Shown: positions 12,145 through 26,406 of the stretch, one piece after another | Layout of the letters: every line of letters starts with the position of its first letter | How positions within the stretch are numbered: position 1 is the stretch's first letter | From: Nevskia sp. | Lineage (GTDB): Bacteria; Pseudomonadota; Gammaproteobacteria; Nevskiales; Nevskiaceae | Reading direction: 5' to 3' | Assembly: GCA_031291075.1 (NCBI GenBank) | Contig: JARLJS010000099.1 | Coordinates: forward strand, 1-37,508 | DNA length: 37,508 nt | The notes under the pieces: model-generated | Seen by the model: the letters and a program-made list of their open reading frames with translations, nothing else | Databases searched by the model: none | What the model was told of the DNA's origin: nothing | Program-made: the position numbers and the translations under genes

Positions 12145-12224
12145 GTCATACCGGCGAAAGCCGGTATCCAGGAATCTGAACGGTAGCGCTGTACGTTCTG
12201 GATACCGGCTTTCGCCGGTATGAC
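12145..12224. repeat. 27-bp perfect inverted repeat (REP-pair type)
   Basis: The arm at 12145-12171 is the exact reverse complement of 12198-12224, with a 26-base spacer. Each arm is itself a hairpin: ACCGGC-GAAA-GCCGGT on the left and ACCGGC-TTTC-GCCGGT on the right. Repeats of the type GTCAT.CCGGCGAAAGCCGG are widespread in intergenic DNA of proteobacteria. It lies after the kinase gene and could act as a transcript-end structure; there is no T-tract. The following bases 12225-12370 hold no gene or clear signal that I can support. Confidence 0.85.
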
Positions 12225-12370: not shown

Positions 12371-12482
12371 GCCCGGGTAGCTCAGAGGTAGAGCAGCGGC
12401 CTTATAAGCCGATCCTCACGCACCGTGAGGCTTCCGCCAGATAAGCGGCAGGTCGCGGGTTCGAGTCCCGCTCCGGGCACCA
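12371..12482 (+). tRNA. tRNA-Ile(UAU)-like gene with a 37-nt insertion
   Basis: All arms are canonical: acceptor GCCCGGG/TCCGGGC (one G-U pair), U8, D arm GCTC-AGAGGTA-GAGC with G18G19, T arm GCGGG-TTCGAGT-CCCGC, discriminator A and encoded CCA. The anticodon arm GCGGC-CTTATAA-GCCG gives anticodon UAU, reading AUA (Ile). After GCCG come 37 extra bases (12412-12448), then C12449, which pairs with G27, and the normal variable loop AGGTC. Removing 12412-12448 gives a perfect 75-nt tRNA. The insert has two hairpins: CCTCAC/GTGAGG (12414-12430) and CCGC-CAGATAA-GCGG (12434-12448). IleRS identity features present are A73, C4-G69, U12-A23, A37 and A38; C29-G41 is reversed. It may be a tRNA with a giant variable region, a tRNA needing excision, or a decayed gene. 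Confidence 0.75.
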
Positions 12483-19609: not shown

Positions 19610-20974
19610 TCACTTGCCGAGGCAGAAGGTGGAGAAGATCCGCCCCAGCAGGTCCTCGGTGGTGAAGCGTCCGGTGATTTCGTCCAGTGCGCGCTGGGCC
19701 TGACGCAGCTCCTCGGCGACCAGTTCAGGCGAGGCGCTCTTGCTGCAGTGGGCGCGCGCCAGGCGCAGCGAGGCCTGGGCGCGGTGCAGGGCGTCCAGGT
19801 GGCGCGCCCGCGCGGTGTAGATGCCTTCCGGCGCCGCGGTGAGTCCGGCGGCGCGCTTGATCTCGGCGGTGAGCAGGGGAAAACCCTCGCCGGTGGCTGC
19901 GGACAGCCGCAGGCTGGTGCGGCCACGCTCGTCGGTGTGCCGCAGCGCCGGCCGGCCGCTGAGGTCGCACTTGTTGAACAGCAGCAAGATCTCGCGGTCG
20001 GCCGGCAGCTTCGCCAGCAGTGCGTCGTCGTCCGCGGTGAGGCCGCTGCCATCGTCCGCCAGGTACAGGATCAGCTCGGCCTTTTCCAGCGCCGACCAGG
20101 CGCGGCGCACGCCCTCCTGTTCCACCGGGTCGGGCGTTTCGCGCAGGCCGGCGGTGTCGACGACGGTCAACGGCAGACCATCCACGCTGATGTGCTCGCG
20201 CAGCAGGTCGCGGGTGGTGCCGGCGTGCGGCGAGACGATGGCAGCCTCGACGCCGGCCAGGCGGTTGAGCAGGGTGGACTTGCCCACGTTGGGCCGGCCG
20301 GCGATGGCCACGATCATCCCTTCCCGCAGGCGCCGTCCCTGGGTGGCTTCGCCGATCAGGTCGGCGGTGATCTCGACCAGTGCGACGATGCGTTCGTGCA
20401 GCGTCTCCGACGTGATCCAGGGCACATCCTCGGCGAAGTCCAGCGCCGCTTCCAGGTCCGCGCGTAGGGCGATCAACTCGTCCAGCAGCGCCAGCACCCG
20501 GCGTGAGAATTCGCCCTGCAGCGACAACAGGGCGGCACGGGCGGCGCCGCTGCTGGAAGCCTCGATCAGGTCGGCCACGGCTTCCGCCTGGGCCAGGTCC
20601 ATGCGGCCGTTGAGGAAGGCGCGCTCGGAAAACTCCCCCGGGCGTGCCGGCCGGGCGCCGGCGGCGAAGGTGGCCTGCAGCAGCAGGTTCAACACCGCCG
20701 GGCCGCCGTGAGCCTGCAGTTCGACCACATCCTCGCCGGTGTAGGACTGCGGCCCCGCGAAATGCAGCAGCAGGCCCTGGTCGATGCGGGCACCGGCCGC
20801 ATCGCGGAAGCTGCGCAGCACCGCCATCCGCGGCGCCGGGAGCTTGCCGGCGATACGTTCCCCCACCTGCCGCGCCGCCGGCCCCGAGATGCGCACCACG
20901 CCCACCGCCCCGCGCCCGGGCGGCGTGGCGATGGCGGCGATGGTATCGGTCCTGGCGGCGGTCGTATCGCTCAT
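19610..20974 (-). CDS. mnmE: tRNA uridine-5-carboxymethylaminomethyl modification GTPase MnmE
   Basis: The 454-residue protein is read from ATG 20974 (MSDTTAARTDTIAAIATPPG), the usual MnmE start, not the ATG at 20998. The N-terminal tetrahydrofolate-binding domain has GRGAVGVVRISGP. The G domain shows G1 GRPNVGKS, the G2 region AGTTRD, G3 DTAGLR and G4 NKCD. The C-terminal end is CLGK, carrying the conserved Cys of CIGK. With MnmG it makes the 5-substituted U34 in tRNAs reading NNA/NNG. MnmG is not in the window. The gene is followed by the Rieske gene on the other strand and preceded by yidC. Confidence 0.97.
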   Translation of the reverse strand: MSDTTAARTDTIAAIATPPGRGAVGVVRISGPAARQVGERIAGKLPAPRMAVLRSFRDAAGARIDQGLLLHFAGPQSYTGEDVVELQAHGGPAVLNLLLQATFAAGARPARPGEFSERAFLNGRMDLAQAEAVADLIEASSSGAARAALLSLQGEFSRRVLALLDELIALRADLEAALDFAEDVPWITSETLHERIVALVEITADLIGEATQGRRLREGMIVAIAGRPNVGKSTLLNRLAGVEAAIVSPHAGTTRDLLREHISVDGLPLTVVDTAGLRETPDPVEQEGVRRAWSALEKAELILYLADDGSGLTADDDALLAKLPADREILLLFNKCDLSGRPALRHTDERGRTSLRLSAATGEGFPLLTAEIKRAAGLTAAPEGIYTARARHLDALHRAQASLRLARAHCSKSASPELVAEELRQAQRALDEITGRFTTEDLLGRIFSTFCLGK

Positions 20975-21001
20975 GGGGGCAGTGTAGCCCCACCGCACCG
21001 A

Positions 21002-21044: not shown

Positions 21045-22724
21045 TCAGGCCTTCTTTTCGCGGCCGAGGCCTTCCTTCTCCAGGCGCCGCGCGATGATCC
21101 ATTGCTGGCCGATGTTGACCAGGTTGCTGATCAACCAGTACAGCACCAGGCCCACCGGGAAGAACAGGAACAGGCCGGTCAGGAAGATCGGCATGATGTT
21201 CATCATCTTCTGCTGGGTCGGGTCCATGGTGGCGGACTGGCCGGACATGCGCTGCTGTATCCACATGGTGGCGCCGTACAGCACCGGCAGGATGTAGTAG
21301 TGGTCGGGCCCGGACAGGTCCTGCATCCATAGCATGAAGGGGGCCTGGCGCAGCTCCACGCTCTGCGCCAGCACCCAGTACAAGGCGAAGAACACGGGCA
21401 TCTGCACCAGCAGCGGCCAGCAGCCGGCGAGCGGGTTGAAGCCTTCCTTCTTGTACAGCTCCATCATCGCCTTGTTGAGGCGCTCGCGGTCGTCGCCGAA
21501 GCGCTCGCGCAGCTCCTGGATGCGCGGGCCGAACTTGCGCATCTTGGCGGCGGAGCGGTACTGCGCCTCGGACAGCTTGAAGAACGCCGCCTTGACGGTG
21601 AGGGTCAGCAGGATGATGGACCAGCCCCAGTTGCCGGTGAGCTTGTGGTAGTGCGACAGCACCCAGAACAACGGCTTCGCCACCGGGGTGAGGATGCCGT
21701 AGTCCTCCACCAGGTCGAAGCGCGGCGCCACCGCGTCCACCGTACCCTGTTCCAGCGGTCCGATGTAGAGCTTGGTATCGAACGCGTGCTCGGCCCCCGC
21801 GGCGACCGGCACCAGGTCGCCGGTGTACTGCGCCTGGTACAGGCCGCTGCCGGGCAGGTGCTTGCCGGTGAAGTCGGCGCCCTGGTCCTGCGGCGGGATG
21901 ATCGCGGTGGCGAAATAGTGCTGCAGCATCGCCATCCAGCCGCCGGTCTGCTTCGACTCGTAAGTCTCGTCGTCCAGCTTCTTGAAGGCTTTTTTCTTGT
22001 AGGCGTAGCTGCTGCTGCCCGGCTTGTCCTGCTGGTACACGCCGATGCCGTAGAAGGTGCCGGCGGTGCGCATGAAGGAAGGGCCGGCTTCCGGCGGCGG
22101 CGGCGTGCGCTGGTAGCGAGCATAGGCCGCCGCCTGCAGCTCGTGGCCGGTGTGGTTGAGCAGGGTCTGGCTCAGGCCGATCTCGTAGCTGCCGCGCTTG
22201 AAATGGAACACCTTGCGCACGGTGTAGCCGTCGGCATCGGTGTATTCCAACGGCACGTCGACGCTGTCGGCGCCGTCCGCCAGCTTGTACTGGTCCTGCG
22301 GCGCGGTGAACAGGGACTGGCTGCTGGTGAGCGGCTTCTCGCTGCCGGCGACACCGCTCTGCAGGACATAAAGCTGGCTGCCGCGGTCGTCAAGCAGGGC
22401 CAGCTTCTGCTCCGGATGCTGCTTGTCGGCGGCATAGTTGTTGAGCTCCACGCGGCGCAACTCGCCTCCCGCCAGGCCGATCTCCACCTCCATGCGGTCG
22501 GTCTGTACATGCACGCGGCGCTGGGCGTCGGCACCGGCGGCGGGAGTGCTGTCGGTGCTCGCCGTCGCAGCCATCGCGGCATTGCCGTTTACCGCGGTGG
22601 CGGCCGCGGCGGCTGTAGCGGCGGCGACCTGCTGCGGTTTGACGTAGTCGTTCTGCCACCCCTGGTAGAGCAGGAACAGGACCACGCCGAGCAGCGCGAC
22701 CAGGATCATGCGGCGGTTTTCCAT
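21045..22724 (-). CDS. yidC: Membrane protein insertase YidC
   Basis: The 559-residue protein has an N-terminal membrane anchor (MILVALLGVVLFLLYQGW), a large periplasmic beta domain (about 60-340) and then the C-terminal Oxa1-like core of five membrane segments, for instance WGWSIILLTLTVKAAFF and GCWPLLVQMPVFFALYWVLAQSVELRQ. The cytoplasmic tail ends RRLEKEGLGREKKA. It inserts and folds inner-membrane proteins alone or with SecYEG. Length and order match gammaproteobacterial YidC. Upstream on the same strand are yidD, rnpA and rpmH, the usual order; the gap to yidD is 49 bases. Confidence 0.98.
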   Translation of the reverse strand: MENRRMILVALLGVVLFLLYQGWQNDYVKPQQVAAATAAAAATAVNGNAAMAATASTDSTPAAGADAQRRVHVQTDRMEVEIGLAGGELRRVELNNYAADKQHPEQKLALLDDRGSQLYVLQSGVAGSEKPLTSSQSLFTAPQDQYKLADGADSVDVPLEYTDADGYTVRKVFHFKRGSYEIGLSQTLLNHTGHELQAAAYARYQRTPPPPEAGPSFMRTAGTFYGIGVYQQDKPGSSSYAYKKKAFKKLDDETYESKQTGGWMAMLQHYFATAIIPPQDQGADFTGKHLPGSGLYQAQYTGDLVPVAAGAEHAFDTKLYIGPLEQGTVDAVAPRFDLVEDYGILTPVAKPLFWVLSHYHKLTGNWGWSIILLTLTVKAAFFKLSEAQYRSAAKMRKFGPRIQELRERFGDDRERLNKAMMELYKKEGFNPLAGCWPLLVQMPVFFALYWVLAQSVELRQAPFMLWMQDLSGPDHYYILPVLYGATMWIQQRMSGQSATMDPTQQKMMNIMPIFLTGLFLFFPVGLVLYWLISNLVNIGQQWIIARRLEKEGLGREKKA

Positions 22725-25305: not shown

Positions 25306-26406
25306 ATGAATATTCAAATCCCGAGAGGCGAGCTGCTTTCCGCACTTCAATCGGTGATCGGGGTGGTGGAGCGAAGACAGTCCCTGCCGATCCTGAGCAA
25401 CATCCTGCTGGTGGCCCAGGAAGACGAACTGGTGCTGACCGCCACCGATCTTGAGTTGCAGGTCGAGCGGCGGGTGCAGGTACAGAACCTCACACCAGGA
25501 CGCACCACGGCGCCGGCGCGCAAGCTGCATGACATCTGCCGCGGCCTGCCGGAAGGAGCGACCATCGGGCTCGAGCTGAACCAGAACCGGCTCCAGCTGA
25601 AGTCCGGACGCAGCCGTTTCACCCTGTCCACGCTGGATCCGGGTGAATTCCCGTCGCTCAACGGCGGCGCTGCCGACATCACGCTGACGGTGACCGGCAA
25701 GGAATTGAAGGAGCTGCTGCAGCGGACCCAGTTCGCGATGGCGCAGCAGGACGTGCGTTACTACCTGAACGGCCTGCTGCTGGAACTGCGCGCGAACCGC
25801 GTGCGCACCGTGGCAACCGATGGCCATCGCCTGGCCATGGCCGAGCTGCGGCGCGACACCGGGGTGAAGAAGGACGCCCAGGTGATCCTGCCGCGCAAGA
25901 CCGTGCTGGAGCTGCAGCGCCTGCTCGAGGCGGACGACGCCGAGGTGCGCATCAACCTCAGCTCCAACCAGGTGCAGGTGGATCTTGACGGCCTCAAGCT
26001 GACCTCCAAGCTGATCGAAGGCCGCTTCCCGGACTACGAGCGTGTGATTCCGGAAGGGTCGGACAAGACCGTCCACGGTGAACGGGCGCGGGTGCGTGCC
26101 GCGCTGTCGCGGGCGGCGATCCTGTCCAACGAGAAATTCCGCGGCGTGCGCTTGCAGCTTTCCAACGGCACCTTGCGCATCCAGACGCAGAACCCGGAGC
26201 AGGAAGAGGCGGAGGAGGAAGTCGAGGTGCAGTACAGCGGCCAACCGCTGGAAATCGGCTTCAACGTCGGCTATCTCCTGGACGCCCTGGACGCGATCGA
26301 GGGCAACGAGTTCATCATGGAGCTGCGTAGTTCCGACGCCAGCGGACTGGTCTACGACGCCGCCAATAACGCCAACAAGTACGTCGTGATGCCGATGCGG
26401 CTATGA
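25306..26406 (+). CDS. dnaN: DNA polymerase III beta sliding clamp
   Basis: The 366-residue clamp is made of three similar domains and starts MNIQIPRGELLSALQSVIGVVERRQSLPILSN, typical of DnaN. YYLNGLLLELRANRVRTVATDGHRLAMAE and the closing NANKYVVMPMRL are family features, the last forming part of the polymerase-binding cleft. It forms a ring on DNA and holds polymerases. Position after dnaA is standard. Its stop is followed by the repeat at 26408-26567, then recF. Confidence 0.99.
   Translation: MNIQIPRGELLSALQSVIGVVERRQSLPILSNILLVAQEDELVLTATDLELQVERRVQVQNLTPGRTTAPARKLHDICRGLPEGATIGLELNQNRLQLKSGRSRFTLSTLDPGEFPSLNGGAADITLTVTGKELKELLQRTQFAMAQQDVRYYLNGLLLELRANRVRTVATDGHRLAMAELRRDTGVKKDAQVILPRKTVLELQRLLEADDAEVRINLSSNQVQVDLDGLKLTSKLIEGRFPDYERVIPEGSDKTVHGERARVRAALSRAAILSNEKFRGVRLQLSNGTLRIQTQNPEQEEAEEEVEVQYSGQPLEIGFNVGYLLDALDAIEGNEFIMELRSSDASGLVYDAANNANKYVVMPMRL

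Follow-up and report, generated by a model that had tools for sequence, protein, structure and literature searches.

At positions 12371-12482 of the plus strand, the window, as we call the whole 37,508-nucleotide stretch of Nevskia sp. DNA analysed here, was found by direct reading to contain a complete tRNA gene with an encoded CCA end, flanked by a histidine kinase gene and a gene for an HxlR-type regulator. A preliminary description of this DNA had interpreted the gene as a tRNA-Ile(UAU) with a 37-base structured insertion at 12412-12448, which was confirmed by the letters themselves, by the predicted fold, and by a match to the Rfam tRNA family RF00005 at 12371-12479 (model positions 1-71, 59.2 bits against a cut-off of 29, E = 1.7e-10), in which the extra stretch appears as an insert. 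The predicted fold consists of a cloverleaf with two extra hairpins, bearing out the earlier division of the insert, and none of 200 shuffled sequences was equally stable (-51.1 kcal/mol, z = -2.84). RF00005 was the sole family over its cut-off in the Rfam scan of the window, and ARAGORN reported no tRNA there. The parts of the gene are listed in Table 1.

Table 1. Parts of the two-armed tRNA gene and their positions in the window
Feature	Position	Strand	Basis and remarks
Acceptor stem, 5′ strand	12371-12377	+	Pairs with 12472-12478
D arm (GCUC/GAGC)	12380-12394	+	RF00005 match, predicted fold
First anticodon arm, AC1	12396-12412	+	Stem 12397-12400/12408-12411, loop 12401-12407 CUUAUAA
AC1 anticodon UAU	12403-12405	+	Proper U33; UAU kept in 11/11 bacterial copies
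Spacer hairpin H1 (CCUCACG-CAC-CGUGAGG)	12414-12430	+	Predicted fold, comparison of relatives
Second anticodon-like arm, AC2	12434-12448	+	Stem CCGC/GCGG, 7-nt loop 12438-12444 CAGAUAA
AC2 GAU	12440-12442	+	Positions 34-36; A replaces U33; GAU in 11/11 bacterial copies
Nucleotide 43-equivalent C and class I-type variable loop AGGUC (44-48)	12449-12454	+	Position 48 varies together with 15
T arm	12455-12471	+	RF00005 match, predicted fold
Acceptor stem 3′ strand, discriminator A73 (12479), encoded CCA	12472-12482	+	Sequence, RF00005 match

By reading of the sequence, removal of either of two alternative 37-nt blocks, 12412-12448 or 12397-12433, would leave a normal cloverleaf. With 12397-12433 left out, the remaining arm would be CCGC-CAGATAA-GCGG, standing on the same G27-C43 pair. 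Thus, AC1 is normal toward the D arm, and AC2 is normal toward the variable loop and the T arm; in the complete window gene, the AC1 pair 27-43 is G.A. The second hairpin had already been likened, correctly, to an anticodon arm that carries GAU and lacks U33. Judging from its sequence, the window gene is a tRNA-Ile with two anticodon arms that spring from one place under the D arm.

The UAU anticodon is accompanied by U33, A37, and A73, which agrees with the sequence of a tRNA-Ile(UAU), or Ile3. From the E. coli isoleucine identity set, A73, C4-G69, and U12-A23 are present, where the identity pair 12-23 is U-A, whereas a review prints it as U12-G23. The minor determinant C29-G41 of E. coli is replaced by G29-C41. 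With UAU in the first loop, GAU at positions 34-36 of a 7-nt second loop, and 9-10 nt between this loop and the T stem, the gene shows the combination by which two-armed tRNAs were recognized throughout this study.

Searches of related genomes indicated that the gene has a limited distribution in bacteria. When the 112 nt were searched against 61 genomes, matches over the full length turned up in G030, G010, G016, and G018, with a weaker one in G025, besides the window's own genome. A covariance model was built from four of these relatives with the window left out, and it reached at least 60 bits in 11 of the 58 family genomes, the window itself scoring 110 bits. All 58 also gave rows of at most 54 bits, and those listed were mostly of ordinary tRNA length, apart from two of 166 and 170 nt. 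A search of the order (85 genomes, the family included) returned the same 11 carriers. In a class sample of 369 genomes, where the best 10 candidates per genome were considered and copies may be missed, only the window's own genome and G391 matched, and the 60-bit match of the latter (L135) was dropped as a tRNA-Leu(UAA). A UAU-tRNA pattern run on 398 Pseudomonadota genomes, with a gap too short for the window's own gene, gave two matches, neither of them called a tRNA. On the reverse strand at 1470-1640 of L012 (G027), we observed CTTATAA, GCCAGATCAGCGCCAGGTCGCGGGTTCGAGTCC, and an ACCA end but could discern no clear 5′ half; this may be a copy that has decayed or changed strongly.

In all 11 bacterial copies, UAU, GAU, and A73 were kept, and the second loop was separated from the T stem by 9 or 10 nt. 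This loop had A33 in nine copies and U33 in two (G010 and G016, with the loop CUGAUAA), and A37 in seven. The 15-48 pair was G-C in three copies and A-U in six, with irregular D loops in G025 and G080. H1 was variable among the relatives and short or missing in some. A count of pairs in four sequences found two that had changed on both sides, which is weak with so few sequences, as 356 of 500 shuffles reached the same number.

The neighborhood of the gene was also compared. Searched against plasmids (E 1e-8) and INPHARED phages (E 1e-6), the window tRNA had no match, so that a plasmid or known-phage origin of this copy is unsupported. The three best-matching relatives (G007, G001, and G003) have the kinase gene, and the stretches fetched from them contained neither an ARAGORN tRNA nor a CTTATA loop; likewise, no tRNA and no CTTATA loop was present around the HxlR-region match on another contig of G007. 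Comparison of the 11 bacterial loci revealed no ORF of at least 100 aa common to all of them. In 5 of the 10 relatives examined, the two-armed tRNA adjoins phage-type metallophosphatase genes on the same strand. At L594, L595, L596, L597, and L598 (G030, G018, G025, G080, and G061), calcineurin-like phosphoesterase genes of two clusters lie on the strand of the tRNA and no more than about 2 kb from it, and where tested they match phrog_246 (NinI-like) and phrog_1649. The phosphoesterase and the two-armed tRNA perhaps form a phage-derived cassette. At L033/L601 (G035), the two-armed tRNA closely follows a tRNA-like sequence and has more tRNA-like sequence behind it, resembling phage tRNA clusters. 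Weak matches to PDC-S10, a candidate defence model, were found in 3 of 10 neighbor proteins tested, and near the G010 copy there is a gene that matches RES and HEPN/RES.

Within the window, a simple hexamer scan gave no convincing promoter site; a CGAATA or CATA box about 30-60 nt upstream recurs in several copies, which proves nothing. Positions 12145-12224 are occupied by a palindromic repeat whose arms, 27 nt each and perfectly complementary, enclose a 26-nt center; among the matches listed, it has many counterparts in the genus, on either strand of the genomes. Pfam identified mnmE (19610-20998), yidC (21045-22724), and dnaN (25306-26406), a set often located near the replication origin. 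The best matches of MnmE come mostly from gammaproteobacteria, which points to that class and no further.

The isoleucyl-tRNA synthetase (IleRS) and the lysidine route were also surveyed. Taniguchi et al. are said to have traced, in 2013, the difference between IleRS enzymes to Trp905 versus Arg. Residue 905 of the E. coli enzyme is Trp and directly follows Cys904. The motif C-x-R-C-W was present in all 16 family genomes examined (11 carriers and 5 non-carriers), the IleRS of the window's own genome having CGRCW, so the residue fails to separate carriers from non-carriers. According to one review, unmodified UAU tRNA is charged by the Mycoplasma mobile IleRS, which "is not the case in E. coli" (PMC4810244).

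TilS matches were obtained in 58 of 58 family genomes, 56 of them over the cut-off. Lists of tRNAs were made for G000, G030, and G071, with longer class II matches partly covered in the latter two. The complete genome G030 contains, besides Met and fMet tRNAs, what we take to be an Ile2(CAU)-like tRNA from its likeness to E. coli sequences, and the window's own draft genome has two CAU tRNAs among 47 tRNA matches, both Met-like. A CAU-tRNA pattern that proved too strict gave no match in 11 genomes. TilS in the family and the tRNA of G030 imply that AUA already has a reader, and AUA accounts for 1 of 5476 codons in ten long ORFs of the window. Given the patchy distribution, the absence beside the kinase gene in the three best relatives, the existing AUA reader, and the rarity of AUA, the bacterial gene looks acquired and accessory or dispensable, and it possibly came from phages.

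The two-armed design recurs in bacterial viruses. A pattern covering both loops matched 10 IMG/VR contigs, 9 of which ARAGORN called tRNA-Ile(UAU), each with other tRNAs nearby; the tenth match (L139) was not called a tRNA. A second scan specified CUUAUAA, a long gap, and a T arm, leaving the variable region otherwise unconstrained. Among the matches listed, it yielded 119 stretches, comprising 82 tRNA-Ile(UAU), 33 without a tRNA call, and 4 other tRNAs by ARAGORN. The 82 Ile(UAU) stretches were used and the other 37 set aside, giving 71 distinct sequences with a long variable region and 52 representatives less than 90% alike; the following counts refer to these listed matches. The second loop naturally had 7 nt in 30 of the 52, with GAU at 34-36 in 28, and 5 nt in 13, with a central GAU in 12. 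When the inner pair of the 5-nt loops was opened, 43 of the 52 had a 7-nt loop, with GAU at 34-36 in 40. Altogether, GAU lay inside the second loop of 45 representatives, and the other seven (L153, L155, L171, L180, L198, L208, and L221) had a second hairpin without it. In several phage Ile(UAU) calls with a long variable region (L153, L180, L199, L200, L221, and L244), a GAAA-type hairpin takes the place of GAU, and in two others (L198 and L208), the second 7-nt loop is CTAACAA or CTAGCAA.

For a test of the stem, the loop was placed by the GAU motif alone, which was possible in 46 of the 52 representatives from the matches listed, and the counts on the second loop that follow share this basis. 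The four flanking positions of AC2 paired in 43, 44, 42, and 38 of the 46, with several pair types at each. Complete pairing at all four was seen in 36 of the 46, but in no more than 3 when one strand was slid by 1-3 positions, and 167 of 184 stem cells were paired, compared with a mean of 106 and a maximum of 123 in 2000 shuffles. The second loop and the T stem lay 9 nt apart in 28 and 10 nt apart in 15; in an ordinary class I tRNA, the numbering places 10 nt between anticodon loop and T stem. U33 was present in 4 of the 46 second loops and A37 in 10. Pairing of 33 with 37 was rejected as a general feature, being A-U in only 23 of 46, and a kissing contact between the two loops was considered and found not to be general, because position 37 varies. 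The preliminary description had proposed looking for covariation in the hairpins of the insert, and the AC2 stem indeed covaries across diverse phage copies. Two of the signs named there as speaking against the gene, a lack of conservation or an ordinary gene in its place in neighbors, did not appear: both arms persist in 11/11 bacterial copies as well as covarying in phages, and no ordinary gene was seen at this place in G007, G001, or G003. Chance or a decayed gene is ruled out by the 11 of 58 family genomes together with the phage set.

A third scan fixed the second loop as CAGATTAG (A33, U37), left the first arm free, and gave 120 stretches among the matches listed. Of the 86 newly found loci in this list, 78 were called tRNA-Ile(UAU) and 82 had TTATA at most 35 nt upstream. 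As a control, GAU was found in 5 of 354 class II variable arms from the same stretches, 216 of which had 4-nt loops. Among 159 viral stretches with a two-armed tRNA, 47 carried a separate ordinary tRNA-Ile(GAU) and 6 also had a UAU tRNA shorter than 80 nt. A parallel scan for a short variable loop found ordinary UAU tRNAs without a second arm in 102 of 120 phage stretches. The 102 of 120 and the 6 of 159 indicate that the second arm is not needed everywhere. Of 48 two-armed phage tRNAs, 12 had a mismatch at the AC1 pair 31-39, compared with none of 74 ordinary UAU ones. Positions 15-48 were G-C or A-U in 17 of 48 (shuffle mean 10.5), a count that odd D arms make unreliable.

Named phages also carry the design. 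It is annotated as tRNA-Ile in Sinorhizobium phage Phosso and Acinetobacter phage vB_AbaS_qsb1, while in Synechococcus phages S-SRM01 and S-SKS1 (L625 and L626), ARAGORN calls Ile(UAU) where the public records have no tRNA. The second loop of S-SKS1 is CCCGAUUAG, with GAU retained. Two further two-armed query sequences matched no named phage, and two ordinary-UAU phage tRNA queries for named hosts matched mostly other tRNAs.

The gene was compared with known systems that it resembles in part. A UAU tRNA-Ile for AUA is described as tRNA-Ile3(UAU) of Bifidobacterium, Mycoplasma, and Neorickettsia and as the UAU tRNAs of lactic acid bacteria (PMC8450103, PMC9976931). The window gene shares UAU, isoleucine, and AUA with the tRNA-Ile3(UAU) of those bacteria. 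As far as is known, the variable loops of such tRNAs are ordinary and their charging depends on an IleRS able to take UAU, whereas the window gene has a second arm with GAU and a Trp905-type IleRS, and 42 nt from position 43 to the T stem instead of an ordinary class I loop. The lysidine-modified tRNA-Ile2(CAU), the product of TilS, solves the same problem of making an AUA anticodon acceptable to IleRS; its solution is a base modification, whereas the window gene would instead use an additional arm with an anticodon.

Class II tRNAs (Ser, Leu, Tyr, and Sec) and allo-tRNAs likewise have a long variable region with a hairpin, and in the case of SerRS, this arm serves as a charging element (PMC7609411). 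In contrast to these, the two-armed tRNA has an anticodon-sized loop with a cognate anticodon, isoleucine features, and A73, and 5-6 nt between the arm and the T stem in 41 of the 52 phage representatives from the matches listed. The window gene has the long arm of class II but neither an anticodon for Ser, Leu, Tyr, or Sec nor a short loop (it has UAU, a 7-nt loop, and C + AGGUC). Group I intron tRNAs of bacteria and the tRNA introns of archaea and eukaryotes also have extra sequence next to the anticodon arm; in the window, by contrast, the insert is 37 nt long (hundreds in group I introns), no intron family exceeded its cut-off, and a conserved anticodon loop lies inside. By every sequence test made, the window gene is a tRNA that is neither an ordinary Ile3(UAU) nor a usual class II tRNA, with no sign of an intron. 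No description of a two-armed tRNA was found in searches of open-access literature or in passages of PMC7609411, PMC8450103, PMC7029224, PMC10688831, PMC8007984, and PMC11938285; one may exist among subscription papers and preprints.

On the reading that we favor, with a probability of roughly 55%, AC1 would decode AUA and AC2 would be a charging handle offering GAU to a Trp905-type IleRS. With its proper U33, which a decoding loop needs, AC1 would read AUA on the ribosome. AC2 would offer an IleRS with Trp at E. coli position 905 the GAU bases that it needs and that UAU lacks, and the loss of U33 would keep AC2 from decoding. Charging would thereby be separated from decoding, such that AUA could be read without lysidine, and in phages, AUA decoding might be supplied independently of the host TilS. 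The consistent company of GAU arms and UAU tRNAs (82 of 86 loci among the matches listed) argues for the handle. Against it, A37 is usually absent from the AC2 loop even though t6A37 counts as a strong determinant for the bacterial enzyme (PMC9976931), and the window gene lacks the minor determinant C29-G41. The chances are about even that the two-armed tRNAs, a natural class recurring in phages, divide the work of an adaptor by showing UAU to the ribosome and GAU to the synthetase, which would permit lysidine-independent decoding of AUA. To our knowledge, this would be the first tRNA with differing charging and decoding anticodons.

Other explanations fit parts of these data. AC2 could be a handle for a factor other than IleRS, such as an enzyme modifying U34 in the UAU loop or a guard against AUG misreading, since UAU tRNAs reportedly are thought, following Taniguchi and colleagues in 2013, to need help of the latter kind. 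Such a factor would suit a loop in which GAU is kept while 33 and 37 are unlike those of a normal isoleucine loop and not all known IleRS determinants are matched. However, GAU is the isoleucine anticodon and sits in an anticodon-sized loop, and no ORF of at least 100 aa is common to the 11 bacterial loci compared; we regard this possibility as rather unlikely. That either arm docks under the D arm, UAU reading AUA and GAU reading AUU/AUC, appears improbable. Both arms have the geometry of an anticodon arm, and CUGAUAA in G010 and G016 is a proper GAU loop with U33, but U33 is absent from 42 of 46 phage second loops among the matches listed and from 9 of 11 bacterial ones. Because 47 of the 159 viral stretches have a separate tRNA-Ile(GAU) as well, GAU is unlikely to be there for AUU/AUC, and this together with the usual loss of U33 indicates that AC2 is probably no decoder.

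The suggestion in the preliminary description that the gene might be a decoy, with AC2 as bait for anticodon nucleases or toxins attacking the host tRNA-Ile, still stands as a very improbable alternative. Phage tRNAs often answer host defenses that cut tRNAs, and the RES and HEPN/RES gene near the G010 copy and the weak PDC-S10 matches would be in keeping with bait, but no gene is common to all loci, and a decoy offers no reason for the tie of GAU arms to UAU tRNAs in 82/86 listed loci. Of the three readings offered earlier, a giant variable region came nearest, since the extra arm belongs to the gene and is conserved. A purely structural arm of class II type, its GAU kept by common descent, would agree with the long variable region, as in tRNA-Ser/Leu/Tyr, and with the 7 of 52 phage representatives in the matches listed whose second hairpin lacks GAU; yet GAU is still kept in bodies less than 90% alike with strongly covarying stems, and it is as scarce in true class II arms as their 4-nt loops are common (5/354 and 216/354), which leaves this explanation with little credibility. 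An unknown processing step, the remaining earlier suggestion, found no support. If some unknown activity spliced or trimmed the tRNA, the loss of either 37-nt block would give a good cloverleaf, but in the window no family besides the tRNA exceeded its cut-off, all 11 bacterial copies preserve both arms, with GAU of the second loop kept while H1 is short or missing in some, and conservation of a cognate anticodon is not what one expects of an intron. We give a spliced precursor the least credence, close to none.

At present, such genes fall into an annotation gap, ARAGORN being silent on the window gene and two cyanophage records leaving theirs unannotated. With the charging-handle reading, the charging of UAU tRNAs in cells with an E. 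coli-type IleRS becomes directly testable. If this reading is true, a single molecule can carry a doubled anticodon with the two functions split, which would bear on codon reassignment and on how phages supply their own tRNAs.
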